From Prostheceraeus crozeri (lineage: Eukaryota; Platyhelminthes; Polycladida; Euryleptidae): DNA of 64,000 bases. Below, piece by piece: positions 243-30,200 of the stretch. Within the stretch, counting starts at the first letter, position 1; the number at the start of each line of letters is the position of its first letter. The notes beneath the pieces were generated by a model that was given only the letters and a program-made list of their open reading frames with translations, had not been told where the DNA came from and ran no database searches. The position numbers and the translations under genes are program-made. The stretch lies in contig CAJQUW010005361.1 of assembly GCA_907163375.1 (NCBI GenBank), positions 124,001-188,000 on the forward strand, written 5' to 3'.

Positions 243-3200
243 CTGTAAATGGCAAGAAAATATCATAATAAGAAAATCAAGAAAATCATGGATTTTTTAT
301 TGCATGAGGGGAGGTAAAATATTCGATAGTTTTGGGATCTTCTGCTGTATACTAAATCCTTTAACACCCGAAAAATGATCTGTTGGCAAAAGATCAGGGG
401 AACGCGGTGGCCAGTCGATTCATCCACACCAATCCAAGAGTTTGGGAATTTGACATCAACCCAGTCTCGAACAATCACTGCAAAATGGTCGTGCTGGAAA
501 TCGATTCGTTCACCTTTCCGAATTCGTGGCTCAATCTAAGGCCAAAAACCATTTCAATAGCACTTCAAAGGTAAGACGAGTTAGACACAGCACTGTCGAG
601 GAAATCGGGTCCAAACACACCACTAGATGAAATGGCACACTGCACTGTTATTGTAGGAAAATTCACACTTTTCGATGATTTCGCGGTTACTTCTCCGGCA
701 AATGCAGTTGTATCTGTTCATCTATCCATTCAGTTCAATAAAATTGATTATTCATATTGTATTAAACTATTACAATATTATTAGTCATTATATGACAAAA
801 AATACAAAACCGAAGGTCAGATGCCTGTAAAGTCATCAAGATGTTTGGCCGCAGATACTTTCATCTACACCAGAAATGTTGAATTGTGCGTAAATTCAGG
901 GCACATATATACACACTGATTGCTTTATTACATCCAGTAACTAAGTTTCCTACCATTGCTGATAAGTTGACATGATGAAGATTAAAACAAATTGGTAGAC
1001 ACTGATTAACAGTGTTATAAAACTTCAGGGACAGAATGTGAAATCTATTATCTATCTCAATGTTGCATAAATAATAATGCAAAAATACCTACATGCCGTA
1101 AATCGGTTAATCGCTTTTGCAACGTGTCGCAGGCCCTGCTGATTCTTCAGACGATAATAACACTTCAGATGGCAAACATCGACACGAGGGGCATGTAACT
1201 AGTCTTAACTAAAAGTACAGCTACACAGTAGTAGTGAATAATATTACTCTTTTTTATGCTCGGAAGCACATTAGGCAAGACGACTCCCTTCTTGTGGTTG
1301 AGTCATCTATCCTACTATTATTATTTTGAGCAGTGTTAAGAAGGAATTCAAAGTCTGCCTATCAGCGAATGACAAGTTCACGGAAATTTTGAACGGCGTT
1401 CAGCTCACGTTCCTTTTAAAAATCGTGAACTCCATTCAGTTCAAGTTCACCAATTAGTCCATCTCGTTCACTAAACGTTCACCTTTCCCTTTCCGTTCAT
1501 TTCAAAAGTTACTCGTATTGTGATATTTACTTTGACTACGCAGCTACCTATCTACATAATTGAGTAATCGCTTCTTTCACATGTCTAAATATTTCAGTAT
1601 AAGATACTACGAACTAGAATGTCACTGCAATTTGGAGAATTCCCGGGTTATAAGCTTACATGGCTTGATAGCACCGATACTTTTCCTCTTTGACATTATG
1701 GCAGTTGTATGAAGGCATGCTTGTCTAAATCTATCTTTAATAGATGGAACAGCACTGCAATTTGCAAAGATCAATCCTGTAGGAGGCCTACAGTTTTTTT
1801 GTCGTAAAATTAAGTTAAATTGTCGCTGCTTTAGTCATAAGAGTTAGCACTGAAGTTTCCCTTATTCATTGGTCTTCCTGCTGCATTCGTCAGGGTGTTC
1901 CAAGTTGCCTTGTCAGAAACCAACGTCATCATCTAAGATTTCCAAGAATTCTATATTGTGCATGCGCTTCATCATGAGCATCAGGCGTCTGACAGTATGG
2001 ATAAAAATAGCTACGGGTGAAGCATTCTGACTACGTAATTTCGGTCAATCATGTGTGAACGTTTTAAGGTAGAAATGAACGGGAGCATTGAACTCCCATT
2101 AATCTCCGAAATATGCGAACACCGTTCAGTTTCAGTTCACGAAAATCGTGAACTGGTTCAATTGAACGGCGTTCAGTCACACTCTGGTGCCTATTTGACA
2201 TGTCTTAGGCTTGACCCGACCAAGATCTTCTGGACACAGAGTAAACACTCTGCCACAAGACCACTGCGCAAGTCTGGATTAGCTGAGATAGCTCGCTTTG
2301 ATTTCTAAAATTTCGTAATCAAGCGCTGGCTTCTAAAAACCCGTTATTTTCGTGATAACGATAGGAATACACAAGGAAACATCTACGATTTTTGTGCAGG
2401 AAAAGACGACCATGTTGTCAATCGATTTCGAGTTTATTAAAAACTCATCTTCAGGACAATACAATCAGAGGAAACAAAGGGTTATATACAAACTGCATGG
2501 TTACAACACAACTCACTTAAAACAGTTGGAAAAAGCTAAAATCAGAACATGTGCAGAGGAATTGATAAACAGTTCTCATTAATTAGGTGGGCACTGGTTG
2601 ATTTGATGCACAGTGCTTCAGCGATGCGAGTGTGAGCTGTTTTAAAGATGACCTTGAAGTCCATTAAGCTTGCCTCATGCGGGTGGTGGGTGATTTCAGT
2701 TGGCGTAGGCTTGCCTTTCAAATGTTCTGTCACTCTCGTAGACAGATGTCTCCGTGTCTCACCTATATAACAGTTTGAGCACTGTCGACATTTAAACTCA
2801 TAGACTATGCCGACTCTTTCAAAAATGCTGGAGAAACTCGTTGCTAATAAGTGGATATTGCCTTACGCTGTCGACAAACTTGACAAGTCACAATTCGCAT
2901 ACTTGCCCGGCCCTGGAAAAGGAACGACTTCTGCGCTCACTCTCCTTTATCATCGTATCCTCGAATTCTTGGACAAGGAGTCAGGAGCAGTTCGAGTCAT
3001 GACACTGGACTATGCTAAGGCGTTCGACCGATTACCCCACCCTGTCATTCTGGAGTCAGCAATCGCTCTCAAACTTCCTTATCAGGCCATTCAATGGATC
3101 AGTAACTTTTTGACTGATCGTCGACAGAGAGTGCGCATCGCTCATTCGACTTCAGAATGGTTCAGTGTTCCGAGTGGAGTACCGCAGGGGAGCGTGCTTG

Positions 3201-6200
3201 GACCCTTGCTGTTTTGCCTGGTGATCGACAGCCTGTGCGCTGTTTGTCCAAACTCAGACATGCTGAAGTTTGCTGATGATGTCACCATCCTTCACTACGT
3301 TCGGAATACGAATGACGACCATCTAGTCGATGAATGGAGAAACATCACTTATTGGTCCACAGCGGTTGGTCTACCCCTCAACGTGGAAAAATACTCAGTG
3401 ATGGACATTAACACCAAACGAGGTTTGAGCCTTCATCCCATCGATGATATTGCAAACAAAGATAACGTGAAGATCTTAGGCGTGATATTTTCTAAAGACC
3501 TTTCGTGGAATAAGCACATCGACAGCGTTGTCTCCAAAGCCAACAAACGGATTTATGTGCTTCGGAATCTGAAACGATCCGGCTGTCGAACCGATATCTT
3601 ACTTCGAGTCTACAAGGCCCTGATCCAATCTGTACTCACTTACGGGTTTCCTGTATTTTGTAATCTTCCTGATTATCTGATGGACCGTTTAGTGCGTGTT
3701 GAGAGACGCATTTCAAAGATAATCGGAAACAATGAAGATCCATCCTTCGCTTCTGCTGCTGAGAGGCAATGTACGAAGCTTTTCCTAAATGTTTTGTATG
3801 ACTCAGACCATCCCCTGCGGGAACTGTTCCTAGCCCGAACACCCACACTCCGGAATCAGTGTATTTTGCGCCCTCCACGAACACGGACGAAGCGTTTGCA
3901 GAATTCATTTATAAGATTTTGCTTGAAATGATTTGTACTTTGCGACAACTTGACTTCAACTGAATTGCATGTAATGCGTGTACCGAATTTCCATTGTGCA
4001 CCAATAAAGATTATTATTATTATTATTATGTTCGATGATAAACACGGAGAGACTTTGTCTTTGTTGGGAAAAATACTAGCGGTCTTAAATGTTTTAAATG
4101 CAACTTGCAATTTATAGTCAGTTTTATCTAACATAGAATTAATAACTTGAACAGATTTTAAAGTCTCGCGCTCTTTCTCTTTGACGTACGGTAATGACGA
4201 AAAAATAGCCGTTTTACTTTCATCAGTAGTGGTATTATTCTCAACTTCACGTTTGATAGACTCGATCAACTTAAGAGGGTAATTATTACTGAGAAAAATG
4301 CTGGTGATTTCCTCACAAGCTTTCTCATAGTTATTATGCGAACTACTAAGGCGTTTAGCTCTGATAAACAAGGAACGAACCGCAGACCTTTTGTATTTCA
4401 TTGGAGCGTAAGAAGCAAAAGGAACGTAAGTTCCAGTATTCGTAGGTCGGACTCTCCACGCAGTCGCAAAAGAGGAATTATGAAAACTGACCATCACATC
4501 CAAGAATGGTAAATTATGATTATCTTCCTTTTCGATGGTAAATTGGATGTTACTATGAATGGAAATAATGCTCTGTCTTTTACCTGATCTTCGCTAACTT
4601 CTACACATCGGATTGAAAATTGCGGTTCAAGGTGTGCGAATCCGAGCAGAGGAGCCTTGGAACAGCTGGTGACAAACTGTAAGTAATAATACTATGAGAT
4701 TAATTATTTAAGGTCATGAGAAAGTAGAGTTACCTTGAGAAAGCAGCCGCGTTCCTTCGGTGTAAAGTCACTTTTCAAAATATCCCACAACCACGCAATC
4801 ACTCGATGACGACCATGAAATCCTCCGAAGTATTGTACATTCCGTCTAAAAATACAGTCAACATTTCGCATGAATTCCGGATATTTATCGGGCAGCAACT
4901 GCAGGAGAAGACTTAGCAATGAAGTGTAACCGAAATACAATGTCTTTTTCGTTTAGGCTGATAGTTAAGAAAGACTTCAAGATCTGGAAGGCAGATTCTG
5001 TTATAAATGTTCAGAATCTAATGCAAATTGAAGAAGGTATTAAGAAAATTCAACGAAGTGATAAGGCTTCTATTGACTTTATTTTGCCAATATTTGCAAA
5101 AGTGACTCTCATCATACTTAAACGCAACTAGAAAATGGTAAAAAGTTGCATTGACTAAATTACTAAGTCAGTGGACTAGTAAATTACTAGCTGAGACGAC
5201 AAGCACGTTGTTGAGTTTCATAATTATGACTCGAAGAATGACTGAAGGGATATGTTCGAAAAATACAATTCTTTATTGTGCGAGCTCATCAACAATGTAC
5301 TCTAATGTCTGTGATTAATCGCTAAAATATCGTGAGATAGATCACATGCTCAAAACTTTATTCATTAAATCGGTCCCGGGTATGCCTGATGCCTATACAA
5401 GCATGCTCAAATTAGAGATGTCGAATAGTCGAGATCTCGGCACTCGGATCGCAAGATATCGAATGCTTCAAAATGGTCGAGATCTTGAGATTGAATTCAC
5501 TAATGAAGACAAAGTATATATTCATCGAGCTATAAGCGCGGTATATACTGATTTGTTAAGTTGTCCCATAGTCTAAAAGTGCCACCTGGGGTACTTATGG
5601 GTGACGACTGATTCATTTTTGCAGATTTTAGACAAATTTGAAAACCTGAGGGGAGATAACCCATAAGTACCCCACCTGGTCGTCAAAGACGCGCAGATAC
5701 ATTGACTTTTGACTTTGATTTTGTCATAAAATTAGCTGCGTTGAAAATATATGTCAATGCAAGTTTGGCATTGGAATTCAAATTTCGTAAAAGAACTCGT
5801 GAACTAGAATAGGGGCATGTCCTATCTGTCTGTATATGTACCCGTAAATAAGATAGCACCCGCACCTCAGCAATCGATAAATAAGCAGGCCTACTATTCG
5901 CTTTGTATTCTCACTTTCAATAAGTGAGTAGATGAGCATGCTTGTCACGCTTGAGCTCGTCTGTGCATTTTACACAACTCGTATATTACTCGTTTCAAAA
6001 GACACTCGTTTCTGATTTGACAGAACATCAATTATCCACCACTGGTATTTAGACAAATATGCTCGTACATAAATTTGCATCAACAAAAAAAAGACGGACT
6101 TACTACATAAGGAATGCATGACAAATATTGAAACTAATTCAAAATTATCAACTTACTTGAGATCTTCAATGTCAATGTCTCCAGTTTCCCCAGAGATAAG

Positions 6201-9200
6201 TTTCTGCAACTCCGGTCCAGAGAACATCTTCAACCAATCAGGATTGACTATAGATTTGAAGCCACGAATGAAAGCTTGTGATTGGTTCTTTATTTGACTA
6301 TACATACGGAATCGCGCGACCAAATGAACGTAACTAATTCTGAAACAAAGTAATTTCGTACATTGATATATTAATCTAGTATGAGTTGCACTTAATAATT
6401 ACTACGCTACAAGTGTATCACCTCAATTATTATTGACTACCTGCGCTATTTTCTGATTTATTTGTGTTCAGTATAAAAGCGGAATCTGTCAATGACTGAT
6501 TGCTACGCGGGTCTTTAAGAGTAGATCGCAACAGGGTTGGACAATTAGCTTCTCTGTTGATTCCTAGTCAATGCTATAGAGATTAGCATATAATGGCCCA
6601 CATCATTTGTGTAAAAATGCTTACAATAAACACAAGTATACTTAAGAGCAAAGACAAGAGTGAGCTACACAGGAAGGCTTACTTCTTCTGCATGTAATCG
6701 CAGTCGATAACAAAATGGTGGCGTTTGTGTGTTATGACAAGTGAATAGATCAAATGCATTTCTCTAAAGTCTCATCTCCAAAGACAGTTGAAATCAAAAC
6801 TGAATATTGAGTGGGAAAAAAACTTGTAAAATTTTGAGAATGGAGCCCGTGTCGCGATTCAGGACAAGGCCGGATTTTACTATGCTCCGAGGGCCGTAGA
6901 GCTTCATCAATCACCAAGTGAACCTAGACGCAGATGAGAGGGAGGAGACGGTCACGCCCGCGAAAAGCAAGTCATAAGATGAGGCAGTTATCGTCATTGA
7001 GATTCCAACATCACCAGAAGGAGAGGGAGAAGAGGAAGAGACAGAGCCGCGGCAGAGTTTGCCGGCCGGGGGGGGGGTTGTTTGAAAACGACCTTTTACC
7101 CACAGGGCCGCATAGTCTTTCAATGTATATATGGGCAAAGTTTTTCTAAGTTTAAATACCACTGAAACTTTAATTTTTTAAAACCTCTGTCTTAGAACTC
7201 ACAAACATATTGTGAGGGGTGGTACGTAACCGAAAAATTTTTTGATTACATTAAATCACGGCACGGTGAAATTATCCGGAGAATCCAGGAAGCGGAAGAA
7301 AACAAAGCTAAAGCAACTACCTTCGTGGAAATTACGGCTAGTCGACCCAACCTTTAAGCGGCCACGAAATGAATCAAAATCTGTAATTTAGTCTATTTAT
7401 ATCTATAAACTAAAGATGACAGGTCGGCATGAAACATGACGAGAAGCTAACCAAAAATCATGATGAAGAAAATCAAGAAACATAAGAAACCAAAATAAGG
7501 TCGATATACACGGAGTCATCAGGGAGGAACCATGAGGCTCCATTAAGCAAGGTTCAATGGACGCATTTGTCATGGTTACGGATCCTACTAGCCAAGAGGT
7601 CCATTGGGTAGATTTTCGGAAGGATCTTATCGAAGTTCTTATATAATTAAATATACAAATGTCGTCAACATACCTAGTACAAGAGACAAGCTTGGCCAAG
7701 CCAAATTTCTTGCTAGCAAGAAGACCCGTCAGGTATCTGAACACCCTAGATGCCAGGAAAAGATCAGCCAAGAATTTTCAGCTTCTTCCTCTTTATTTCT
7801 GCCTCTTTTTCCTCGCGATATTTCTTAGCAGCTTGTTGGTAATGAAGTATCATTGAGTTCGAAATGTTAACATTTTAATTCCTTTTCCATCAATGAGAAA
7901 ATCTTTCACTGTTCTCAGTCCTACAATCGATGATTATGACAAGCAGAATCGATTATCAGTTATAATGTCTTTGTTTATACTAAATCCCCGCTGTGGATCA
8001 GCACGACATCAAACTTTTTGCCAATTTACTCAAAATTGGGAATTTTAGTGAATCTGTAGGAGTTTTTATTTCGGACACTCCTCGCCAGTAATCATCATCA
8101 TGATCCTATTCTTTCTGAATATGTTCACGCTCTTGATTGTAGACATACCACTCAGTTTCAAGCTGATCAATCTGGGTTGACGGAATCAAATGTGGTATTT
8201 GACCAGCTGATCTTTTCACACTACAAATAGGGCTTTCGGGCCAGAAGTTTGATGATTGATGCATAACTTATATGTCTCGGTGAAAGTTCTCATGAATAGG
8301 AAACTTTTCGCTGATATACTTAGTAACAACAACATAAAATGCCTTCACTTGCAAAAGGAACTGCTGGTTGAATTTGCATCTGGAAATTATTCCTTCAGCT
8401 CCTTCTTTGCCTCATTCCCAGGATCAATTCCAAGGAAAACCTTGTGATATTCTGATTTGGAAGGATCGATCATCGCGAATGATTCATTCCAAGATTCCAG
8501 AAAATCACTTTTGATGAACCGGTGATACATTATTCCGAGAAGCTCATAAATCGAAGCATACAAAGCATGTATCATTGGCTTCTTTTTCTAAAAAGGTCGT
8601 AAGAACTCATTTAAAAGAGACCCGACAAATTTCAAAAACAGCATATAAATTTCAGACCAGCGCGAGTTCAGAAAGTTCATAATTCTCTTATACTTCGGTG
8701 AATTCAGCACACTTTTGTCCTTCAGATGCGAAAAGCATGTTTTTAAACTCATCAACTGTGAGATGTATTTTTGAAGAACTTCAGTAAAGTTGTCCATCGG
8801 GACTGGACATATCGGGCGAAAGAACTCAACTTCGGCTCAATATCGGGCTCCACTTCTAAGAAATTTTGAACACGACGAAAACTTTCTCTTATGCTTGCCG
8901 AATATTTGAACCAAAAAAAACATCTTGAATAAACTCTTCAACTTCCCAATGCAAAATAGTATCATGGCCTTTTCTAAAACTTATGAACAATAGTAGTAAG
9001 CAAACCTCCACAATAAACATAGCCCCCCCTCGGTTATGAGTCTTGGTTGTCCAACCGTGTTGACTTGGGCGGCCGACCAGGTTGGTAAACGGTAGAGTTA
9101 TTGGTGAATGTGAGTTGGTTTTGGTCTGTAGAGCCAAAGGGAAGCCTCGGATGGGAAAACGGAGGTTAGATTCGGAATCTACGTGAAATTTTGGGTTAGG

Positions 9201-12200
9201 AAGGTTGTTTCCAGCGAAATCGGCGAGAAAAAATTTTTGGGACGTCCCCCCCCCTCGGCAGCGTTGCTTCCAACTTTGGTTCTAGAGATCGTAGAAAGTC
9301 GTGCAATAGCTCGTTTGAAAGCTAACAGTGAGACAACCTCAATGAAAGAAACGGCTTGTTCATATCTGTCTTCCTTAAGATATGAGACGCCATTTAAGAT
9401 TTGGGAGATTGGCGAAAAACGACAGGGTTAACGGCGAATTTGGGATGTTTTGGGCTCTAGCGTCTAAACGGCTGAAGTCGTGCAATAGGTCGTTTGAAAG
9501 CTAACAGTGAGACAAATTCAGTGAAAGAACGGCTTGTTCATATCTGTCTTTGTTTAGATGTGAGACGCCATTTAAGATTTGGGAGATTGGCGAAAAACGA
9601 CAGAGTTAACGGCGAATTTGGGATGTTTTGGGCTCTAGCGTCTAAACGGCTGCTCCAATGGCAGATCTGAGACCAGATTTGGAATGAGCGTCAAATTCTA
9701 CATCCGTAGGGTGATTTCCAGCTCAATCGGAGAGAAAAAAGTTTCAACATTTTTCGGAAAAACGACTTGAGTTAACGGCGAATTTGGGATGGTTTTGGGC
9801 TGTAGAGCCAAAGGGAAGCATCGGATGGGAAAACGGAGGTCAGATTCGGAATCTACGTGAAATTTGGGTTAGGAAAGTTGTTTCCAGCGTAATCGGGGAG
9901 AAAAATTTTTGGGACGTCTCCCCCCCTCGGCAGCGTTGCTTCCAACTTTGGTTCTAGAGATCGTAGAAAGTCGTGCAATAGCTCGTTTGAAAGCTAACAG
10001 TGAGACAAATTCAGTGAAAGAACGGCTTATTCATATCTGTCTTCGTTTAGATGTGAGACGCCATTTAAGATTTGGGAGATTGGCGAAAAACGACCGAGTT
10101 AACAGCGAATTTGGGATGTTTTGGGCCCTAGCGTCTAAACGGCTGCTCCAATGGCAGATCTGAGGCCAGATTTGGAATCGGCGTCAAATTCTACATCCGT
10201 AGGGTGATTTCCAGCTCAATCGGAGAGAAAAAAATTTTATTCATTTTTCGGATAAACGACAGAGTTAACAGCGAATTTGGGATGTTTTGGGCTCTAGCGT
10301 CTAAACGGCTGCTCCAATGGCAGATCTGAGGCCAGATTTGGAATCGGCGTCAAATTCTACATCCGTAGGGTGATTTCCAGCTCAATCGGAGAGAAAAAAA
10401 TTTTATTCATTTTTCGGATAAACGACAGAGTTAGAATTTGGGACGTTTTGGGCTGTAGCTTCAAAACGAAGCATCGGATTGGAAAACGGATTTCAGATTT
10501 GGAATCAGCGTGAAATTCTCTATCTGTATGGTGAGTTTCAAGTCAATCGAACAGAAAAAATTTTCAACATTTTTCGAAAAAACGACAGAGTTAACGGCGA
10601 ATTTGGGTTGGTTTTGGTCTGTAGAGCCAAAGGGAAGCATCGGATGGGAAAACGGAGGTCAGATTCGGAATCTACGTGAAATTTGGGTTAGGAAAGTTGT
10701 TTCCAGCGTAATCGAGGAGAAAAATTTTTGGGACGTCCCCCCCTCTCGGCAGCGTTGCTTCCAACTTTGGTTCTAGAGATCGTAGAAAGTCGTGCAATAG
10801 CTCGTTTGAAAGCTAACAGTGAGACAAATTCAGTGAAAGAACGGCTTGTTCATATCTGTCTTCGTTTAGATGTGAGACGCCATTTAAGATTTGGGAAATT
10901 GGCGAAAAACGACAGAGTTAACAGCGAATTTGGGATGTTTTTGGCTCTAGCGTCTAAACGGCTGCTCTAATGGCAGATCTGAGGCCAGATTTGGAATCGG
11001 CGTCAAATTCTACATCCGTAGGGTGATTTCCAGCTCAATCGGAGAGAAAAAAATTTTATTCATTTTTCGGATAAACGACACAGTTAACAGCGAATTTGGG
11101 ATGTTTTGGGCCCTAGCGTCTAAACGGCTGCTCCAATGGCAGATCTGAGGCCAGATTTGGAATCGGCGTCAAATTCTACATCCGTAGGGTGATTTCCAGC
11201 TCAATCGGAGAGAAAAAATTTTCAACATTTTTCGGAAAAACGACTTGAGTTAAAGGCGAATTTGGGATGGTTTTGGGCTGTAGAGCCAAAACGAAGTATC
11301 GGATGGGAAAACGGAGGCAAGATTCGGATTCAGCGTCAAATTCTACATCCGTAGGGTGATTTCTAGCTCAATCGAACAGAAAAAATTTTCAACATTTTTC
11401 GGAAAAACGACAGAGTTAACGGCGAATTTGGGTTGGTTTTGGTCTGTAGAGCCAAAGGGAAGCATCGGATGGGAAAACGGAGGTCAGATTCGGAATCTAC
11501 GTGAAATTTGGGTTAGGAAAGTTGTTTCCAGCGTAATCGAGGAGAAAAATTTTTGGGACGTCCCCCCCTCTCGGCAGCGTTGCTTCCAACTTTGGTTCTA
11601 GAGATCGTAGAAAGTCGTGCAATAGCTCGTTTGAAAGCTAACAGTGAGACAAATTCAGTGAAAGAACGGCTTGTTCATATCTGTCTTCGTTTAGATGTGA
11701 GACGCCATTTAAGATTTGGGAAATTGGCGAAAAACGACAGAGTTAACGGCGAATTTGGGATGTTTTGGGCTCTAGCGTCTAAACGGCTGCTCCAATGGTA
11801 GATCTGAGACCAGATTTGGAATCAGCGTCAAATTCTACATCAGCATGGTAAATTTGAAAGCTATCGGAGAGAAAAAATTGTTCAACATTTTTCAGAAAAA
11901 CGAGTTAACGGCGAATTTGGGTTGGTATTGGTCTGTAGAGCCAAAACGAAGCATCGGATGGGAAAACGGAGGACAGATTCGGATTCAGCGTCAAATTCTA
12001 CATTGAAATGGTGTATTTCCAGCTCAATCGGACCTCTAGAATCGGTGATAGAAGCGTTTAAAGTTTTTGGATGATGGATATTACGTCATCAGCTGATCGC
12101 CACAAACTATATAAGCTGGGAACCGACAGAGACTTGTCATTAAGACGAGAGATTGTCAACGGTAGGTCGTCTCTCTGAGCTCTGATGATAGCATCGGACA

Positions 12201-15200
12201 TTCCAAATTTCGGGTTTCTGTAAGAAACCGACTTAGAAAATTTCATTGCTGATATCAGCTAAGGCGTCAGACTTAAAGGTTAGCCAGGAGATGGCCTTAG
12301 TCTCCAGGCCATAAAAGACTCCAAAACTTTAAAGGCTTGTAACTTTGCTTCTACAAGTCCGTTTGACTTGATTCAAAAAGGTTCGGTCGCTATTGACCTG
12401 CCCTAAGTGATAGACTACTTATAAAATTTCATAAGTAGTGCTAAAAAGTTGAAAAATTTAAATTCGCTATTTTTGGTGATTTTCGGGGTTTTCAAACCTT
12501 CTGATTTCAATAAAGACCTTTATAAAGTTGTCAGAGGCGAGCTTCGGCTCGAGACTTGCTTCCTGATGTAAATAACTCCACCGGTTTTCATGTCAAAATC
12601 GGGGTCCGAATACCAACACAGTGATATGACGCACGCTCTGTCCGCGGGAGGTTGGATTTGAGGGCCGAGGCCTTGGAGTCGGGATAAGATCCCCTCTGAG
12701 TAATGCCTGTAACGGATTCATCAGCCTAGCTTGTCTATCCTCAAGTATTGAATGACATATTAGTTGTATTTTTAAAATGATTGTCAATGTATTCATTCGT
12801 TGAAGTTATAAATGGTATAAGTAGTAATTCTATTTCATCCTTCCTTTACAGAAAATGGGAGGAAATTCAAGATTTTTGCTTAAAAAGTGCTCTTGTGGAG
12901 AGATTAAGAGAGGCGGCGAATTTAAACGCCACATTAACAAATATAAGAATACTCCTCACTTTCACGAGGAAAGAGCCGTTATTTCCGGCTGCATACATTG
13001 CCTGAAATTTTTAAAAGGCAAGGATCAGACAGCATTTTATGCCGCTCACGCCGAATGTCCGATCAAGAAGGCTAGCAATTATACGACATCAGACATCGGC
13101 AAAGTGATCACAGCCTTCTTCAACGAAGCAACAGTCGATCTAGACGCAGAATTGCAAGATGCAATTGATACCATCTTGAGTCCGACTGCACCGACCACAG
13201 AACAACTAAGTGGATCGGACAGCTCAGACGACTCCGATTCTGAGGAGGTCGTCATCAATAAAAACGCGGAAGAGATAGGAAAACCGGCAAATCAGTCTTC
13301 CCCGATAAAGAAAGTGATCGCACCTTCCCCAGTAAAGAAGGGGATTAAGCAGCAGACGGATAGCTGGAATAAGGATGCCCAGATCGCGAAAGTGAGCCAG
13401 GAATATGCACTCACGAAATTAAAAGACGAACTCACTCGTTACAAAAACGAATGTGCGGCCCTTAGGGACGAGAATTTTCACCTTAAGGGTCAACTTAGAA
13501 CCTTTCCGCGAAAGGGCGCTTACCAGCGAAAAACGCGTGACTGAGCAGGCGACGTATATAAAATCTTTAAAAGCTCACGAAGAGGCGTCAAAGCTAAAAA
13601 TCGAACAACTGAAGATTAGCCTGACTGAGAGCCAGAAAAAGAGGAGAAAAAACAATGCTCCACCTTCCCGTTGTCAACAGCAGAATTGTTGATAACATAA
13701 TAATAGAAAGCGAGGACTTGGACACCACATTCGAGTGCTACGATGGGGCGATGGCGGAGATGCGCTGCTTACACATTTCAATTAAGCACGATGTTGACAT
13801 CAAGGAATTGCGCCACCGCAAGCGGAAACTGCCGGCCAAATACCTACCTCACCCACCACCATCGAAGGTTCAACGAACCGATTAAGTTAATTTATGGTAA
13901 GTTAATATCATCTCTATCACTTGAATATAATTTCATCTATTTTCTTTCTATTTTTCAGATGCGACGTGAACGAACCAACGGTCTTTAAGAGGCCACCATG
14001 GGGCAAAAAGTGATAGTACCTCCACGTGGTTTGCCCTGGACAGACTTCGGTCTGACTGAATCTATCACATAATTAGAAAGACTGAGTCATGTCTTTGTAT
14101 CAGAGGGGTATATAAACCATTACCTCTCTTTCATTTTCATTCTATACTCCATCATGAAAACACCTAAGACGACAGTCAGCTCTCCTGACAAGACTCGGCT
14201 TAGACCGAGAAATTTATTTATTGAGTTTTCAGAGATGGAGGAGCGAGAGCGAGTCTATAACAATCTTGCTCGAATCGGCTCATCGGTTACCGATGATGCC
14301 GATTCAACAGAGTGGAGATATATTCCGCCCTCTGACAGTCGGATGGAAGTAGAGGAGGTCGATGCCGCTGACATAGAGAGATTAAAAGTCTCTCTCAGCG
14401 GAATCGGCCAAATCTAGACATGTATCCGAGAACGAACCATCGGTCTTTAAGAGACCACATGGGGCAAAATGTGATAGTACCTCCTCGTGGTTTGCCCTGG
14501 ACAGACTTTGGTCTGACTGAATCTATCACACGAATATAAAAAATATAATCATAAAGTTGTATCTGCTATCAGTCAACTTTAACGTTGCATGGCACGGAGA
14601 ACTTCGGTATAATTCTTCCTGTTGGTGGGCGATCTCTCTTGAGACAGCGGATGATATCGTAGTGATGAGTGTGGCAAGGGCTTGAGACTTACCTTAATCC
14701 GACTTTCCAACGGTCGTCGTGGTCTCTTCGCTCAACGTAGCACTTTGAACGCCAATCGGTTGAGTCTTAGCTATCTGCCGCAGGTTACTTTTTTAAATTC
14801 TCCATTGCATACGTTATCTGAGAATGAATCATGAGTTCTCTTAAAAACTGCCTCTATTATTGAGGCTAAATGATGAAGGGATGAAATGGGAGGGCACTCT
14901 TGCGCCACACGCAAACATATACATCTTCTCTCTTTACTAATGATACGATCTCTTTTGATAGAAAAGTAGACCGATAATAAATGTGATGACATTCGCAACC
15001 ATGTATACAATAAACCCCATATCTAAATTCTTCCCTTTATTTCCATTTCTAGATCAATACATTGCAAAACAAAGACATGTAGTTCTTTAGATTTATTTAT
15101 CAAAGTTCAGTGGGACTGGTTTCAAGTCATTATAAATCCTGTAATATACCACTCGCTTTGGTGCATCCGGCACTCTTCTGAGTCGCGTCGTCTTCGGTGT

Positions 15201-18200
15201 GAACTCGCCCTCACTCCATACAACTTGGGTGATTTCACTTTTGCTACCACTCTTCTCCTCGTCATTGGCGATTTTGGGTTTATTGCCACTGTTCACATCC
15301 TCGTCCCATTCATCGACAACTTCGAAAATTTTGTGGAAAATATTTAAGGCTTCAGAAGAATTTGCCATACTAGCCTGTTCGATCGTATGATGTGAATGAG
15401 AAGTGCTACAATCTTCTGATTTATATAGGATATTCAACAATACTTTCCTCGACAGCCAATCAGAATCACTCTAATTTAGATAAAGACTGTTAAAGTCAGA
15501 AGATTGCAAGATATACCAATCTCAGCTAAAATGACAATTTTGTGATCGTCAATGAGTGCGATGAAGGCATGAGTAGTCAGGAGAGTGGTAACAAAACTGT
15601 AAGAATTATCTGGACAGACGAAGAGTGGACACCGAAAACAACTCGTGAGAGAAGAGTGTCAGATGCTCCCAAACGATCAAGTATGCTTTGATTTTAAATA
15701 AATCTAAAGAACCACATGTCACTACTTTTTGATATTTTCCCTCAGTGATTGAGGTAGTATTTAGGAAAAATGATAGTGTCTAGCATCAGCTGCTATGATT
15801 TATACTGAGCTGTCAAATGATTAGATTTTCACTATGATGTTGATGACTACATTACCCAGAAATAAGTGAAAACAGACAGATATAACAAATGAAACATATA
15901 TTCAGAAATTACAAATAATTTAGAAGTTCTTCAGTACTAATATTGTCCCACAGCGATTCGCAGTTACTGCAGTCACATTTCAGTTGTCGCAGTCTTTCCT
16001 CCGCTGCAGCCAACACACCAAAGACGTACTTCTATTCAATCTCGTTCCTGGGTTGAGACGATGGGCTGTACCATCTCCGTATGTCATGGAGAAGACTGAT
16101 ATCATCCTCCTTCGACACATCCTCCTTGTTGTATAGTAGGTACTTCCACCTCACATACACCATTTCCATCTCCTCTTCCTCAGTCAGAGACGGATACTCC
16201 AAACTTGGAATATCCTCGACTGTTTTCTTCTTCTCCAACTTCACCTTCTTTGGAGCGGGAGGGCAAGTTGATGTGTCCACGGAGAGAGTTGCTGTTGGCG
16301 AATTCATGACTTCAAATTGTATGCTATAAACTTGATTTCTTAGTGCTTAAGTACAAGTAAGTAGCCAATCAAATGAATAGCCAATGAATGCCGAGTATGA
16401 GAGTATATAAAAGGGGGGAAACAGACTTATTTTTCATTCTATATTTGATACGTATTGAGAATAAGTGAAGTCTCTATTTTGATAAACTATACAATTTTCT
16501 AACATTGAAGTATCATACTTAAACTTGTTTTCGTTGAAATGGTAAGTTGAAGATTTCCTCACTCATCTCCCTCAAACGTTTGGTTAATAGCATCTTTCTC
16601 AATTTCAGCCATCTACTTCATCACCAAAACGCTCCCTTCTCGAGGAAACTTTAGAGCTGTTAAGTGAAGGTAGGTTGTAACAATAAACTATAACTTTAAT
16701 AGAGATGATAGAATGATTTCTCTTTCAGGTGATGTTAGTACCAGCTCAAGCGGTCAGTCGCGGGAATCTAATGAGCGGGAATGTGCTGATTGTGGTCACA
16801 TCTTTACAAGGAAGCGTGATCTCGCCCGACACATCAGACAACGTGTATGTCAACCAAGACATCATCAATCTCCCGAGGTGAGGATGATTCTATTCAACAT
16901 GTCTCCTTTACTTGCGACTTTTGCACTCTATCTTTTGAAACACGTTTTGAATTATCTTCACATAGACTTCACCACACGCATACAAATGATAGTTATAGTA
17001 ACAGCACCTCCTCTATCCGTCTCACTGAAGTGTCGCTCAATAATGTAGTGAGAAATTACCATATGGAATCCTCAGAAACCATTGCTGATTTTCCGGAGTG
17101 GTTTCATCAAAATTCAATATTAATAGATGCGCTCTTTAGAAATTTAGACAACTTTAGAATAAAAGCGCTCATCTATCTTAAAATAAAATATGTTAAAGTT
17201 GATCATCATACTGGCGAAATAGTGCAGAGGTTGGAGTTTCACATACCCTCCTCTCCTGCTACAGAGGTAGTAGATAAAGAAGTATGGTTAAATTTTCACA
17301 TTCAAGGGCTAAAATCAAATATTGATAAATTTAACGAGCGCGATAGTGGTCTGATTTTTGATGGTGTAGAATCTGCCATGTTTAAAATTACTCTATTAGA
17401 AAATTACAGTGGACGAGGCTCCTTCAATCTTCCAAAAACGTTAAAAGATAAGAAAGCAGTCATTTCTATAGATTGTGAATCGCACTGTTTTAAGTATGCG
17501 GTTTTATCCATTCTCCACTATCATGATGTACAGAACAACCGTTTCCGTAAAACCAAATATCATCAATGGGAGAATGAATTGAAATTTGATGACTGCAATA
17601 GTGAAGATATGAAATTGAAAGATATAGAGAAATTTGAAAAATTAAATGAAATTAAAATAGTTGTTCACGTCTGGCAAAAAGGACTTAAAGGTGTACGCTA
17701 CAACAAACGTTCATCAACTTATGATCGTGTTGTCAACCTCTTGTTGGTATATGAGGATAGCAGTCAACAATGGCATTACTGCGGTATTCCAAATATTCAT
17801 CGACTATATTCCCACTTAACATCCAAAAGGGGGAGCATTTCATATGTGACCGTTGTATGAGATCCTTCTGGTCAAAAGATAAGTTTCAAACACATTATGA
17901 ATGGTGTAAGCGAGGTAAATTGCAAATGGAACGCATGCCCAAAGATAAAATCTTTTCATATAGAGAGAATGGTAGTGAATTAAGTCCTCTTCGTGTCATC
18001 TATGCTGACATCGAATGCTATATTGATGATAACATCCACAAGCCAGCAGCCATATCCTGTTATGAGGTATGGCATAATCATTTCCAAAATAAAAATAATA
18101 AAATGCACGTCTGGCAAGGTGAGGATTGTATACACAAATTCTTGCAATTCCTGGAAAGTGCTAGTAAATTTCAACAAAAATATGATAGTGAACTCTATCA

Positions 18201-21200
18201 CAGATCATTAAATATGACAGCAGATGATCAGGTAAAATTTGAAAGTTGTAAAGTCTGCTCAAAATGTAATAAAACGTTTGATGAGGGTAAAATTAAGAAA
18301 GTGCGCGACCATGATCACATCACTGGTAAATTTAGAAACGCACTGTGTTCAAGATGCAATTTTTCTCTAAGAATGAAACGGCGCACTCTACCCGTAATTT
18401 TTCATAACTTCAAAGGCTATGACAGCCATATGATAATAAAAGGGGGGTTAGGAAAAATGAAGGGATGGTTGATGAATGTTATAGCTCAAACGAGGGAAAA
18501 ATTTATGTCCATGACAGCAAAAGTACCAGTTGATAAGACTAAAGAAAATAAGACAGTCTACTTTGATATAAAATTTTTAGATTCCTATCAATTCATGACT
18601 TCATCACTAGCATCTCTCGTTCAAAATCTTAAGTCTCTTCCACTAACTCAAAATTTGAAGAAACAATATCCTAACTTGACAGATGAAGTCATCACATGCA
18701 AAGGAGTGTTTCCATATGCATACTTTGACAACATTTCTAAACTTAGTGAGACTTCTCTTCCATCAATAGATAAATTTAAAAATGATTTGACTGGTATAGA
18801 ATGTAAGGTAGAAGATTACAATCATGCTCAAGTTGCATGGACAAAATTTGACTGTCAAACGTTTAGCGATTATATGATCGCCTATCTAAAATTAGATGTA
18901 TTTTTGCTGGCTGATGTATTTCAGGAGTTTCGACGAGTGACATTAGAAGAAGATAAATTAGACCCTATCCACTTTGTCAGTCTTCCAGCCATGTCATTCC
19001 AGTCTGCTTTTAAAATGACTGGAGAGAGCATCCATCTTTTACAAGATCCAGAGATGTATAATTTATTTGAGCGAGGAATTCGCGGTGGTCTCACATTTGT
19101 AAATAGACATCAAATAAAATCAAAAATAGTAGATGATGATCAGATTCATCTAAAGTACTATGACCAGAATAATTTATATGGTAGTTCACTATCCAAACCT
19201 CTACCTCACTCTGAGTTTAGCTGGCTAGGTGATAGTGAAATTCAACATTTCTCCAATCCTTCAAACATACTAGCTATTCCAGATGATGGTGATTGGGGAT
19301 ATTATTTTGAGGTAGATCTTATCTATCCAAATAGTATTAAAAATAAAACTGTGGATTTTCCACTTGCGCCCGAATCAGGTGAAGTGACTGAAGATATGTT
19401 TTCGGACTTTATGAAACAATTTCATAAAGATTTAGAAGGGAGTGGACAGCCCAAGTATAAGCCTTGTCGCAAACTTTTGCTTACTCAATTTGATAAAGAA
19501 AATTATCTAGTCCACTTTTCCATCTTAAAATTTTATTTAGAAATGGGCATGATTTTAAAAACAGTTCACCGCATTATCAAATTTAGACAGAAAGCCTTTC
19601 TGAAACCATATATTGATAGTAACAGCCAGAAACGTGCACTAGCCCAAAATAATTTTGAAAAGGATTTTTATAAATATAAGAATAATAGTCTTTTTGGTAA
19701 GACGATGGAGGATGTTAGAAAACGTATAAACTATAAACTTGTGAATCATAATGATAAATTTCAAAAGTTAGCGGCATCACCTCTCTTTATTGATAGAGAT
19801 ATTATAGATGATGAGTTGGTTGGTGTTAAAATGATAAAATCAGAAGTAGAGTTGTGCAAGCCCATCTACATTGGACAAGCTGTATTAGATTATTCCAAGC
19901 TTGAAATGTATCAACTCTTCTATAGAATATTAAAACCATGTCCTCTAATTAAAGACGTGCGTTTGCTGGGTGGTGATACAGACAGTTTCTTTTTAAGTAT
20001 CGCTGCTCAGAAAGAGTTAAACTTCAATGAAATAGGAAAATCTTTAGAAAATTATTTTGATACGTCAAATTATCCTACAGATCACCCACTATACTCTACT
20101 AAAAATAAAGCAAAATTAGGATGCTTCAAAGATGAAATGGCAGGAAAAGAAATTAAGGAAATGATTCTTCTTCGGCCTAAAATGTATTCTATGAAACCAA
20201 AAGACTCCAGTGACAGTATTAAGCGCGCAAAAGGCATATCTAAATCGATTGTTGTAAATATGAAACATAGGGTCTATAAGAAGACCTTTCAAAATAAGTG
20301 TGTAACGTTTGTCAACATGACCATCTTAAAATCAAAGACGCATGAGGTAAAAACTCATACATTTAGAAAGCGAGCACTTTCAGCGTGGGAAGATAAGAGG
20401 TGTTGGATAGGGCATAACATATCTCTTCCACATGGTCATCCTGATACAAACATATCACTAACCAAAAGAATTAAACTCACACTACCACATTCAGGAGATG
20501 TGTAGATAGATTCAGTCTCAAATCAGTATTTTGATGATGCTTTTGTTGACATTCATTGTTGTTTTATGTATCGCTTTAGATTGCACTTCCTTGTGAATAT
20601 ATGCCTACAGTCAGCCCATTCCCCCTATATCTGTGAAAAGACTTTTTCATACACATATTTTTATTTCAATAAACATATCACAATGACTTCACTTTGTTTT
20701 CCGAAACACTAAAGTTACGAGGGATTTAGTATCTTTGACATGGATGCACTCATGTAGACCATTTGTAATTTTGATAGAAATAGATGGTATAGTTTGTTTG
20801 ATAACAGGATGGTAGAAAATAGGTTGAAACATCTTCTCGACTATTCCATATAAAGCATCCTTATCATGAATGAAATCACGTAAAATGTGTTCTTTTTCCT
20901 CGCCAACAGAAATAGGTAGAATCAAATCACTTTGAATGTAAAGGTGTTGTTCATGTTTATCAAGTGTCATTGGTGTTTCTATACCAATCGTATGCGCAGC
21001 AGTAAACACAGTTTGTAGCATTGAAAAACCAAAGAGTTTTTTCAAATTTTTGCTCAATTGACATTGAATGTCATCACCCAGTTTCAGAACAACGCGTTGA
21101 TTTTCAAATGAAAACGAAATGTGGTGTGTCTTTACATCATATTTACTTTTCATCACATGCTTCAACTTCTGTTGTATATAAGGATTTATTACATGAATGA

Positions 21201-24200: not shown

Positions 24201-27200
24201 AGAATTTGCTTTATCTTATCGACATTTTCAATGCCTAAATCATATCATGAAGGACTTCAAATACTTCTATATGGAAAGACATTCACGCATAGGAAATCGC
24301 ACATGGTTGCGACTAAAAAAGCAACGAATACAAATCTATCATTCCCAACTTTCTATCTGCTTCACATTTCATCAAGGTAGTTGGGAAAAGTATAAAAGGA
24401 AGATACATCGCTCTATTTACTCATTTCTTCATCATGAGACGTCATCGTTACACCATCGTCAACATTCTCCGCCGCTTCAGACTCTATACCAAAATCGATC
24501 TCGCAACATTACATCAACAAATTCCAAACAGCAAGTATTATCCGGGTCGACCTGAAATGTTAGTGGTGAAGATGAGCAATTCACGGAACCTTCAACTCTT
24601 TCCAAATGGGACGGTACAAATTCTCGGCGCCCTTTCTCATTCATCGGCGCGGTTAATGCGCTTAGAACTGCAGAAGCTAGTACGCCGGATATGGAAGAGG
24701 GAGAAGTGTGTGATGTCGAATCTGACTGTGAACAATATGGTGATCTCTACTCAATTGAGTGAAAATGTATCGTTTTCGAAGATTCATAACAGCAGCTACA
24801 ATTTCTGTTATGAGCCAGAACTTTTTCCTGCAGCTCTCATTAGTTGTTGGTTACCTGTGCATGTTGCAATCTTTCATAATAGTAAAGTGATCATTACTGG
24901 ACTAAAATCTCATGTACAAGCAAATGTGATCCTAGACTATCTCATCGAGTATGTACGTACCCAGCGGATTGTAAAATAAAAAACAATTTTTCCAACATGA
25001 TGTTTTTATTTCAAATCATGATAAAACTTACAAATCATTTTTTCATTAGAAGATGGGTTACATGAAAATTTTTGAATAACATTTAAATCGACGTACATGC
25101 AAACGTTTTAAAATGAAGTACAATACGAAAGCACCACAAGTTGATGAAAGTGGATGTTGTAGTATGCGCTCATTTCGTTGATATTGACGAGTATGTTTTC
25201 TCAACCACTGCTGTGTTGCTATATTTGGAGGTTGAGCAAGAGAGTCAAATAGTTCACCGCGTCTGTCTTTTCCAATAAAGATCGCTTTCCAATGTTCACC
25301 TTCTAAATTCTTTGACTGAGTGTTCAATACAATAAAGATGGGATACTGCTTTACTGTAGTTGGTAGGGCATCTAGCGAATAGACATTATCAAAAGCTTTC
25401 AACGTAGCTTTATCTGCATTACGCTGTACTTTAGCTTTAATATCGTCAGCATTCAACCAGCTCATTAACGATTATAGTGAAGACGCACGTCACGATACTT
25501 AGTTATTTCAATATTTTAATCAAAAACTGCATAAATCAATACATTGATCGTCGGAGCTAGCGTTGTTTTAAACTCCAGATCCAAGCGAATATCATGAGGA
25601 ACGTTAGCTTGACGATAAGGTGCACTAATATCACTGTCGGCAGTCAAATCAAATGCATAAATAGTATAGCCATTCTTAAACTCTTTCATTGTAAGCCCGT
25701 TGGTGTCGTCTGTGTTGTAAAAGCCAAAGACATGTAGTCAACATAGCTGCGCAAAAATTGATAAGATGAGAAGTCTGGTCTATAGGGCGGTCCAGGATGA
25801 CTGACACCATTTACACGTAAAGCAATTTCGCTCAAACTGTTGTGTTTGAAGTTGAAAGGATTCTTCTTGATATTGCCATTGAATTCATCATTTTCAACCA
25901 TTGCTACCATTAGGAGTTTTGGTGCTTCTGATGGAAATAAACCTTTCATAAAACTCTTTTGATCTTTAGGAATAGTAAATGTGAGAAGCTTTGTATGTTG
26001 AATGGGATAAATAGCATTGCTACGGTTAAGACCCTCAGCATGTCCTCTAATTACACTTGGATTAGCTACTACTCGACGAATGTATAGCGTAATATCTTCC
26101 ACATGGATTTTAAAATTGACAACTTTAGCATATGCATTCAACAAAAATTCAGGCTTGTTCAATGTAAGTTTGACTCGCATGCTGGTATCACAGAGTAAAA
26201 ACTTTGACTGTCTGAAGAAGTCAAGATTTAATGGACCATATAGCTGACATACTTTACTATCTTTAATCAAAGCAGATCGCTTTACAAAACCAGTGTTTGT
26301 CTCACTATCAAATTGTGTTGCTTCATCTCTATATCATCCCATTGCTTCCATATGACTCTTTTGTGCTGACGGATGAAACTGTGATAGGGCATTGAAATAT
26401 GCTTTATAGGGATAATCGCTTTGTCCACCTTCTACCTGCTGCTCTCCAATAGTTAGAGAAACATCACGAAATAGTGTTGCCAGCGGTAAATTGTTCAGAC
26501 CAACTTTATGTGCATCATCGATGTTAGTACCATCTGCTTGCTGAATTCTGAACCGCACATCAACCATCGCATAACTTAAATCAATGTAGTCATCACTAGC
26601 ACCAGGAATGACAAATTCAATTGGACCAGTATTCTCAGCAGTTCGAGGATGATAATCTACAATACTTGAACTACGAATATCTGCCTGTATCGCTTTTTGA
26701 TCAATCAAACAAAAATTTGAAGTTTTACACTCCATGATTAGAAGTTATGACAGCGTCGTCGTTTAGCACGCGATGAAGGATTAGAGCGCGCACGGCGTTT
26801 GCGTGAATGCCTTTTCTTAGATTTGCGTGAAGTTCGCCTCTTACCAGCTCCGCGCTGTTTTCTTTTTCTTCTAACATTCATTCGTTTAGGTGCTTTCTTT
26901 TGTTGTGTAGCATTAAAAGTTTGTTGTAATGTTCTTAAACCGCGTTCCTTCCCACGATTTAGTAAACTACTCTTTATATTTTTCCACTGGCAATATCATT
27001 GACAACATCACCAGCAAAGCCAACAGCATTACTTAAAACAGATCGTTTTAAAGTTTTTCCGACAGTAGATTAGAGAGGAGATACAACAGATTTCAGCGCG
27101 CCAAATATACTACCTCCACGTTGACGGCGAGATCCACTGTAAATTGTACCCGCTCCACTTACATAGGAGGGCGTGAATAAAACGATGCAGTCGGATTCAT

Positions 27201-30200
27201 TACTTAAATCTTGAACTCGCAAGTTATAGTTTTGCATAAATCACTTGCGATCACTTTGATGAAAAATGGCTGTACGACGCATCCAAGAGTTCATACTTGA
27301 AGCATTATACTTGCATTATTACGCTTGCGTTGAAATGTTTTACGCACTTCATCTACATTGTCAGCATTCACATCTGCTGGTCTGAGTCCAATAGAGCGAT
27401 GTACAGAGTGATTGTAGGCATGTACCGTATCTTGTAGAATCTTTGTCCAATTTTGTGTTAAGTTGGCAGTAAAATGTCGCCACAAGCGATTTTTCAATGT
27501 GCGGTTAAAACGTTCAACTAATGCAGCCTTATAGGCACTCTTTACACTAAACAACTCAATGTCATATCTCTCGAACAATCTTCCCATATGCTGATTTTCG
27601 AACTCTTTTCCTTGATCACTCTGAATTCTGTTTGGAATGCGACCCTCTTAAAAAATTGACTGAAATGCGTTTGCTACTCGTTTACCTTCTTTAGTTTTTA
27701 ATGGTTGAGCCCACGCATATCGCGGGAAAATATCAATTACTGTCAAAATAAAATTATTTCCCGAGTTATGTTTTTAAATAGAGGCAACGTCACACAAATC
27801 TGCTTGCCACTGTTCATCAATGTCATGAGTAATATAATGACGGGTACGGTACTTCTTTTTCACTTGTTTGTGGAGTGTATAGATAGCCTGACCCTTTAAC
27901 CATTGTTTAACTTGTGATTGTGGAAGACCACTCGCTTTTGACAATTTCTTTATAGATGCAAATCCTGCTGGATGTTTTATATCATAGTATATTGACTTTA
28001 AAAGTTCATGTGATGACGACTGACTCTTCCTCCTTCTTCTCATGTTTTTGCTTTGTCTTTTTACACTTACAACAGCCACAAGATTTAGCAGATTTGCGTT
28101 CATGTTCACATTGCTTAGGAGTCTCACTGTAAGAGCTGGCACAGCAAGTACATGTTACATCAACATGCACCTCCGGCGGTTCATTACATGGCATGCAACA
28201 CATCTGCTTCATATTAATAGTCTGAGAACATATATTTCTTTGGTGGAGATCTTCTACGTCTATCTCCTTCTCTTGTTTGCCTAGAGGGTGTAGATCTACG
28301 TCGTTCTCTTCCTCTTGTGTAACACTCCTAATTTTAGGAACAGAATTAACATTTGAAGTAGTACCAACTTCTGAAGTAGAATCAAGTTCTTTCAATGTTT
28401 CATTATTCAATGCAAATTTTGGAACATTATGCTTTTTCAATAGTTTAAGAAAGTATGACCAACCATGTGGGACATAACCTTGTCGACGTTTTCTACGCGT
28501 TGCATACTGAATCAAGTCTTCATAACGCGAAGCGCTAATAATTTTATCATCATCTGTAATGATTTCACCTCTATCATTCACATTGAGATATGGTTCAATG
28601 CTGTTGAAAAGAGCTATTGCATGTGCACGAGATGCTAGAGGTGTAGCAGTCGAAACAGAGTCACGCATCTTATTCTTCAAGTTTTTCAATTGCTCAACAG
28701 TTTCCGATTGTAATAAAACTGCGCGATATGGATCTTTAATATGTGCATTTTCCTCATAATCCAGCTCTTTCTTATAAATTTGATTTGCTAGAGGTTGCTT
28801 TACTTGCTGTAAAGCAGTTAATTGCACATATTCATCCTGAGGAATAACAATCATGCGAGAATAGGAGCTCATAGTTTGCAGATAATCATAGGCTTTTTCA
28901 AAATATCACTTCGAAATCTAAATTCTTCCGGACACTCTTGTGTAAAATCAATAAATAAGTAACCGTGTGGTTTTTCAGTTGCTGCTTGAAAAATTTCAAT
29001 TAAGGCTTTTGAACCTCTTGGTGAAACTTGTCGCGCTAAAATTTCAAATTGACTTCTATCTCGTGGATTCTCAAAGATAGCGTAATAGTGCGTATTCAGG
29101 CTTCGTGTGCGGGCTTCTTTCCCATCAGGAAACAAATTTTGCGTGATATAGATTATAAAGCACCTTTTGTGATGTGCTACGCGGTGAATATATCTGTAAC
29201 GTCTTTAGAATTCTTGCTTTCCTTCAATAGACATCCAATACAACGACATCGTTGGACTCTATCTTATCAGCTCGAATAATTCCTTCAGTTCGAATAAAGT
29301 TACGACGTTGCAATTCCTGAAAGAGTGACGGCTGATAAATACCATAACACCAAATAACTCGATTGATAGGTTCCCTAAACAACTCTTTTCTTTTGTCTAG
29401 CAAATTCAGAGTGAAAACAGTTTTACCTGCATGGGATGGACCTGATACAGTCAGAACTTTATCACATTGAAGTCTGAAATCCATTTTAATACTTTGAGAT
29501 TCAACATTTGCATAATTAACGCTTAGAGCCAAAGATACTACCCAATACGTTGCCCACTACAGGAGCTAACATCGGAAGTAGTGCTGAAAGGAAACCACCC
29601 TTTTGTGACAGAGTTTTCCTCTTTCTTTGAAGGGTGATTTTAGGATTGGAGATAAATCGTAATTTTGTAGCATATCGCTTAAGTAACTTTCGTTGTTGTG
29701 GTGATAATTTCTTTGTCCTCAAACTTCTCACATGAGAAACAATTTCTCGAATAAATTTATCATTAGCATGTCGTATAGCATTATATCGATGATTTCCTTT
29801 CATTCGTTGAAGAGCTCGAATGGCTGCAGAAAATTTTGAAGACTTTTGACTTTTACGTCTCGCCATTTTTCTCTTTATCATTGTCGCAACTTGAGTTTTC
29901 CATATTTGCATAGGTACTAACTTTTATGGCAGAAGTGACACTCAAATTGAGCTATATCACAGTGGCTACATTGACAGAGTTGAATACAGCAGGGTATTAA
30001 ACAGCGCTGGCAGAAAGTATGCCTACATCTCTTAAAGATGCGTTTTTCACTTCCATCCTTTCGCTTACATACATCACACATATTTTCACTCTTACTAACA
30101 ACTTCTAAAGCAAGTCTTTTTGACGACATGAACTTGCTAGCCTTTTCTAAATAATAGACGCATGTACAGAAGGAATATACTTCGAGAGTAAGTAGACATA

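Follow-up and report, generated by a model that had tools for sequence, protein, structure and literature searches.

The window analysed here is a 64,000-nucleotide (nt) stretch of the genome of the polyclad flatworm Prostheceraeus crozeri (contig CAJQUW010005361.1, positions 124,001 to 188,000), and it contains a Polinton-like DNA element. Within this element, two near-identical sequences, 69 nt each, are arranged as ribozymes of the hepatitis delta virus (HDV)-like class. According to their sequence, the two copies very probably are self-cleaving ribozymes. Each copy forms a repeated unit with a leader of 35–40 nt, and the two units closely follow the stop codons of two adjacent co-directional genes, one unit per gene; these genes are called gene A and gene B below. 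We see about an even chance that these units form ribozyme-made 3′ ends of the gene A and gene B mRNAs of the element. The fold itself is already known. New are the type of element that carries it, its occurrence in duplicate behind stop codons and a layout common with viral contigs. The features are as follows.

14000–14068, + strand: HDV-like ribozyme, copy 1, with the predicted cut at 13999/14000 and the predicted catalytic C14056.
14461–14529, + strand: HDV-like ribozyme, copy 2, with the predicted cut at 14460/14461 and the predicted catalytic C14517.
13959–13999, + strand: leader of copy 1, starting at a predicted splice acceptor, with clear similarity to copy 2 from 13966.
14420–14460, + strand: leader of copy 2, with clear similarity to copy 1 from 14427 (pairwise alignment).
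13980–13994, + strand: leader hairpin of copy 1 (6 base pairs, 3-nt loop), ending 5 nt before the cut.
14442–14456, + strand: leader hairpin of copy 2, ending 4 nt before the cut.
9037–33375, no strand assigned: Polinton-like element of about 24 kb between inverted repeats, holding both ribozymes.

A preliminary description of the window had claimed that both copies contain every helix of the HDV fold, with a G·U pair at the cleavage site and a C in the J4/2 strand, and that they differ only in J1/2 and loops. All of these features were found. In both copies, P1 is formed by 7 base pairs (bp) (GGGGCAA/TTGCCCT), and its first pair is the G·U pair at the cut. P2 has 7 bp (GTGATAG/CTATCAC), P3 has 3 bp (ACC/GGT), P1.1 has 2 bp (CC/GG) and P4 has 5 bp (CAGAC/GTCTG). 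All 24 counted pairs of copy 1 are standard, and no mismatch is present in the HDV-fold helices of either copy. Both copies show the nested double pseudoknot of P1, P2, P3 and P1.1 that defines the HDV-like class, in which P4 is optional. J1/2 is 3 nt long, L3 is UCC(A/U)CGU and J4/2 is ACUGAAU in both copies. L3 holds the conserved U and G of the class, and a reverse wobble and a cut on the 5′ side of the first P1 base are predicted. The C residues of J4/2, C14056 and C14517, align to the C of the Rfam family RF02682 and to that of our covariance model R1 described below. In the R2 ribozymes, replacement of the L3 G or the catalytic C is described to abolish cleavage (PMC3774820), and both of these essential bases are present in the window copies. 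As to the J1/2 spacer, a related ribozyme is described as inactive with 0 nt and as having little activity with 1 nt, and rate constants are given for 3 and 7 nt (PMC4908430). Within the ribozyme, three positions distinguish the two copies, 14009/14470 (J1/2), 14024/14485 (L3) and 14048/14509 (L4). In the pairwise alignment of these two DNA-level paralogues, none of the differences disrupts a pair.

The repeat extends further than the 69 nt described previously, and includes the leader and its hairpin. The similarity between the copies is clear from 13966/14427 to just beyond P2′, with a shared ATG at 13959/14420. In the flanks beyond the unit, similarity is not clear by pairwise alignment. 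Over leader and ribozyme together, the copies are six substitutions and one single-base gap apart. One U·G pair of the leader hairpin in copy 1 is replaced by a U–A pair in copy 2. When substitutions were placed at random, all pairs were kept in 8.4% of trials for the ribozyme (three substitutions) and in 2.2% for leader plus ribozyme (six substitutions). Thus, the two copies alone favour conserved pairing only moderately.

The fold was searched for with descriptors of different tightness. The strict descriptor, which demands all helices and a fixed L3 pattern selected with the target known, gave two matches in the window (the two copies) and none in 200 dinucleotide shuffles, both strands being searched. 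A loose first descriptor gave 24 start positions in the window, four of them at the two copies. According to the comparison of 24 loose with two strict matches, the tightness of the descriptor matters. In a third version, the two copies ranked at the top with a score of 54 each, and the runner-up scored 47.4 at 44523.

Rfam was judged to be independent of the target-informed L3 pattern. When the 114 bases around each copy were compared with 4227 Rfam families, HDV-F-prausnitzii (RF02682) and the CPEB3 ribozyme (RF00622) were the top two families for each copy. For copy 1, HDV-F-prausnitzii scored 22.8 bits (E 0.011) and CPEB3 18 bits (E 0.0088); for copy 2, the values were 20.0 bits (E 0.05) and 13.5 bits (E 0.27), respectively. 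The HDV-F-prausnitzii match covers the full model length and begins exactly at G14000/G14461. A search with 701 bases gave eight weak matches, of which CPEB3 had the best E-value and the third-best score. A scan of the whole window at gathering thresholds gave no match.

A second model was built from viral sequences. The core pattern ACCTCYNCGTGGTN7GGNC was found in 75 stretches of IMG/VR, and nine of these fit the complete HDV descriptor (L009, L021, L026, L028, L030, L046, L075, L078 and L080). As the nine were chosen by descriptor, their pairing is not counted as covariation; their surroundings played no part in the choice. The 66 core matches not fitting the descriptor were left out. Among them, L015, L027 and L045 (which are one sequence) and L076 (truncated by the contig end) may be ribozymes too. 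The covariance model R1 was trained on the nine viral-contig ribozymes with the window excluded. R1 detected copy 1 with 31.6 bits (E 5.4e-5) and copy 2 with 31.0 bits (E 7.4e-5), the E-values of the tool being rough, and no further match was found in the rest of the window up to E 1. Selection had been by the core, so that a fair control is given by the 66 loci which share it and were not used for training; two of these 66 reached at least 31.0 bits (L076 and L055). The preliminary description had proposed an HDV-ribozyme covariance search. The two best Rfam families, both below threshold, and the window-free model R1 together support the HDV-like interpretation.

The viral contigs, which are presumably phages judging from the collection, were also compared with the window in layout. 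R1 found a second L075 ribozyme (start 3417), giving ten sites. A stop codon is located 24–47 nt before the cut at six of the ten sites (L030, L026, both L075 sites, L080 and L046). In L021 the stop is at 131 nt, in L078 it coincides with the cut, and no stop is found within 300 nt in L009 and L028. In eight of the nine ribozymes chosen by descriptor, the 3′ end of a hairpin with a strength of −13.5 to −19.4 kcal/mol is located 1–2 nt before the cut. At most two of 40 control positions are as good for seven of the nine; L046 has 7/40, and L028, which stands behind a tRNA, has 15/40. The first base of the L028 ribozyme, which has P4, is also the last base of a tRNA-Met gene (5549–5623; the whole stretch is 5549–5693). 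L028 shares the published layout of the phage theta ribozymes, and therefore serves as a positive control. P4-bearing ribozymes directly behind strong hairpins are present in L026, L030, L080, L046, L009, L078 and L021, several of them located between open reading frames (ORFs), and a start codon follows 17–32 nt after the ribozyme in L009, L078, L075 (first site) and L080. In L075, the ribozymes at 2541–2610 and from 3417 onward flank a 249-codon ORF (2643–3392), as the window copies flank gene B, and each is preceded by a hairpin (the second identified by eye). L026, L075, L080, L030 and L046 have the same order as the window, that is, stop codon, hairpin, cut and ribozyme. L026 also resembles the window in GGA and ACUGA around P4 and in CAT|G at the cut. 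In contrast to the window, the hairpins of the viral contigs are much stronger and nearer to the cut, and the sequences of P1, P2 and P4 are unrelated. The exact pattern ACCTCCNCGTGGTNNGCCCTGG gave no match in the viral contigs.

The features next to the ribozymes are as follows.

12855–13885, + strand: gene A, open frames with the last stop TAA at 13883–13885; product without assigned function.
12108: TATA of gene A.
13897–13958, + strand: predicted 62-nt intron (GTAAGT...TTTTTCAG), read from the sequence, between the gene A stop and ribozyme 1.
14109–14116, + strand: TATA box of gene B (motif scan), between ribozyme 1 and gene B.
14154–14417, + strand: gene B, coding for an 87-aa protein without assigned function; stop at 14415–14417.

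Gene A is spread over three frames (12855–13544, 13423–13692 and 13625–13885), which probably belong to one gene; the breaks between them may be due to decay or assembly error. The frame 12855–13544 gave no Pfam family above the cut-off, and it shows no significant similarity (E 0.71) to the gene that occupies the corresponding position in a second Polinton-like element of the window. The gene B stop is 43 nt from the cut of ribozyme 2, and the gene A stop, by hand count, is 52 nt from the first cut if the intron is spliced. Behind the TATA box of gene B stands TTCATTCTATA, which likewise occurs at the polymerase gene of the element (TATA 16404). As gene B has its own TATA box and initiator, ribozyme 1 most simply belongs to gene A, and ribozyme 2 to gene B. 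The short distance from stop to cut is common to the Polinton-like element and most viral-contig sites, which points to the upstream gene.

Another element probably also carries the unit behind its version of gene B. Two metagenomic relatives of gene B were found among 5.8 billion proteins searched, P0121 (80% identical, from a 686-nt source contig) and P0122 (55% identical). P0121 runs in frame past the position of the gene B stop, through the leader and into the reading frame that covers the ribozyme, where 23 of 24 residues are identical to copy 1 and 22 of 24 to copy 2. One change is located in the P1 region (P to S), and it is compatible with a G·U or A–U pair; the comparison is at the protein level only. 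An alignment of gene B gave no match in the viral contigs.

According to the proposed mechanism, RNA polymerase II would transcribe gene A or gene B from its own TATA box beyond the stop codon. The leader hairpin would fold first and the ribozyme next, and the ribozyme would then cut the RNA 4–5 nt past the hairpin. The upstream product would be the message with a short 3′ untranslated region (UTR), a hairpin end and a 2′,3′-cyclic phosphate, without poly(A). The downstream product would have a 5′-OH and the ribozyme at its start. A possible benefit would be 3′ ends free of host polyadenylation, or a punctuation of tandem genes. A wider proposal is that a virus-like DNA element ends its mRNAs without host cleavage and polyadenylation by a reusable cassette of hairpin and ribozyme, and that the same logic operates between phage genes and is general for DNA viruses. 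We regard this extension as tentative, and somewhat more likely to be wrong than right.

Several observations weigh against these interpretations. As for the fold, J2/3 has one extra U, and the C of J4/2 is the second base, not the first, if P4 is taken as 5 bp. All Rfam HDV-type scores are below the gathering thresholds (44 for RF02682 and 35 for RF00622), at about half of them or less; these are narrow families, and sub-threshold scores do not test the HDV fold class in general. HDV-F-prausnitzii is missing from the matches of the 701-base search, in which CPEB3 is the sole HDV-type family. The second Polinton-like element has no match to the strict descriptor. As for the 3′ ends, both leaders form hairpins of low strength (−4.8 and −5.4 kcal/mol), and equally good hairpins were found at 11 of 40 control positions for copy 1 and at 6 of 40 for copy 2. 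A mechanically called same-strand ORF of at least 60 codons spans four of the ten viral-contig sites (L021, L026, L028 and L046). The element is partly decayed: the putative capsid gene (25686–26744, − strand) has an in-frame stop, and the putative ATPase (28869–29556) and integrase (27291–28154) are split between frames. Therefore, the window copies may no longer be expressed. For both gene A and gene B, AATAAA and ATTAAA are missing from the 400 nt around the stop, and this lack was rejected as evidence, since the signal is also lacking at 8 of 19 other ORF ends (the comparison comprises 21 ends hand-picked from the ORF list).

A likeness of the leader to the histone 3′ stem-loop was noticed by eye. 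No histone 3′ stem-loop family is among the Rfam matches up to E 10, so a histone stem-loop route is not supported.

The leader hairpin and the viral layout bear on a different use of the same cut. The ribozymes could act as an off switch that removes poly(A) from the gene A and gene B messages and lowers their levels, tunably if the folding is regulated. Hammerhead ribozymes have been reported in the 3′ UTRs of mammalian genes, and the window copies are indeed located between the stop codon and any AATAAA/ATTAAA. The off switch, however, leaves both the conserved leader hairpin and the layout of the viral contigs unexplained. In the presumably phage-type hosts of these contigs, poly(A) would not stabilise messages. 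We consider the off switch unlikely. Less likely still is that the ribozyme pair, by cutting twice in read-through transcripts, excises the gene B RNA as a piece of 461 nt (14000–14460), whose 5′-OH and 2′,3′-cyclic phosphate ends a host RtcB ligase could join into a small circle, as in retrozymes. Two same-strand ribozymes do flank gene B, and the contig L075 also carries two around one gene. However, the layout of L075 fits linear 3′ ends equally well, and the TATA box of gene B lies inside the excised piece, so that ribozyme 1 would be unnecessary for gene B.

It is improbable that the units descend as fossils from the 5′ ends of retrotransposons or persist as inactive relics. HDV-like ribozymes are described as typical of R2 and present in other non-long terminal repeat (non-LTR) elements (PMC3774820), and the decay of the element agrees with relics. 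Against this, the copies are similar for 34–41 nt ahead of the ribozyme start, and a retroelement 5′ end alone would not account for this. Moreover, both copies have kept all their pairs, and the unit probably also stands behind a relative of gene B.

The ribozymes are overlapped by two short reading frames.

13998–14072, + strand: 24-codon frame over ribozyme 1, with Kozak-like GCCACCATGG.
14459–14539, + strand: 26-codon frame over ribozyme 2, read from the sequence.

In both frames, the G of the initial ATG is at the same time the first base of the ribozyme. The three ribozyme differences between the copies are all at third codon positions, as well as all in J1/2, L3 and L4, and one of them changes K to N. 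With the codon usage of the polymerase gene, only 5 of 200,000 synonymous recodings kept all 24 pairs (mean 17.3 pairs); thus, the peptide does not force the fold. A conserved short peptide MGQ(K/N)VIVPPRGL(P/S)..., with the fold as a by-product, would agree with the frame being open in both copies, with the Kozak context of copy 1, which is perfect against the consensus, and with the fusion of the frame to the gene B protein in P0121, but it is very improbable, given the recoding result, the in-frame stop 9 nt before the ATG in copy 1, the frame of copy 2 being out of phase with gene B, and the finding of no other relative of the leader/ribozyme peptide stretch among proteins of 72–229 aa.

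The proposed ribozyme-made 3′ ends can be compared with known systems. According to the sources drawn on here, HDV-like ribozymes occur in HDV, CPEB3, non-LTR retrotransposons and phages. A literature search combining HDV-like or self-cleaving ribozymes with Polinton/Maverick elements found no report, subscription papers being mostly outside its coverage. HDV-F-prausnitzii shares with the window the core ACCUC-YN-CGUGGU and the first base at the predicted cut. It is a bacterial family, whereas the window copies are in a eukaryotic-type mobile element, and the differences include a shorter stretch between P1 and P4. The CPEB3 ribozyme, which has the HDV-type fold, resembles the window copies in being among the best two Rfam matches to both. 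It is described in an intron of the Cpeb3 gene (PMC10919898), in contrast to the position of the window copies behind stop codons. The R2 and other non-LTR ribozymes resemble the window copies in being in a mobile element and in having the same fold with the conserved L3 G and catalytic C; they are described to free the 5′ end of the element RNA, whereas the window copies are in a DNA element at gene 3′ ends (PMC3774820). The phage theta ribozymes similarly cut behind an upstream structured RNA. The theta class is described as a minimal motif without P4 and associated with tRNAs, whereas the window copies have P4 and stand with a small hairpin behind an ORF; the sole tRNA found in the window is at 55523 (PMC10879173 for the theta class). 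In the same source, the functions of most HDV-like ribozymes are described as little understood. In this respect, the present setting is unusually informative, with two copies, each behind its own gene.

A delta ribozyme at the end of a message is a laboratory trick. If the window copies cut, they would be natural counterparts of it, and a eukaryotic virus-like element would be tied to a similar arrangement in viral contigs.

The Polinton-like setting given in the preliminary description is supported by the inverted repeats, the polymerase and the protease. The element has the long terminal inverted repeats, family B DNA polymerase (PolB) and adenovirus-type cysteine protease that characterise Polinton/Maverick elements. 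The inverted repeats (9037–12044 and 32481–33375) are made up of tandem units, each about 166 nt long and diverged from one another, and the left repeat contains more of them. The protease matches Peptidase_C48 with 21.3 bits, just above the cut-off of 20.7, and the integrase fragment matches rve_3 (19.2 bits) and rve (17.2 bits), both below the cut-off. Two further genes we take to be the capsid and packaging ATPase genes; the pieces tried gave no Pfam or PHROGs match. The polymerase (17770–20505) has the motif GDTDS, invariant in 30 aligned sequences. In Pfam, it matched only Endonuclease_7 (endonuclease VII-like), near residues 159–199. This domain is also present in most of the 120 polymerase relatives listed, and some relatives carry DNA_pol_B_2 (PF03175). 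The polymerase has 2696 relatives at E ≤0.001, which indicates that further such elements exist. In the viral contigs, the window PolB has no relative by single sequence and one distant relative by alignment (L001); in the genome contigs, five distant relatives were found (L002–L006). The strict ribozyme descriptor gave no match on L001–L006. Close relatives of the element or of gene B were not found in the DNA collections searched, and blastn against the phage collection gave 12 records with short matches only, covering at most 8% of the query.

The second Polinton-like element seems to begin in the region 57400–64000 and runs off the window. Its polymerase frames (61273–63905) are interrupted by stops, with a DNA_pol_B_2 match on 62906–63577, and one weak match to the loose ribozyme descriptor is located at 61716 on the − strand. 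In the first element, a small gene at 15093–15470 on the − strand has a TATA box of its own (15427, − strand). By eye, a seemingly degenerate second copy of this small gene is present at about 15540–15690 on the + strand.

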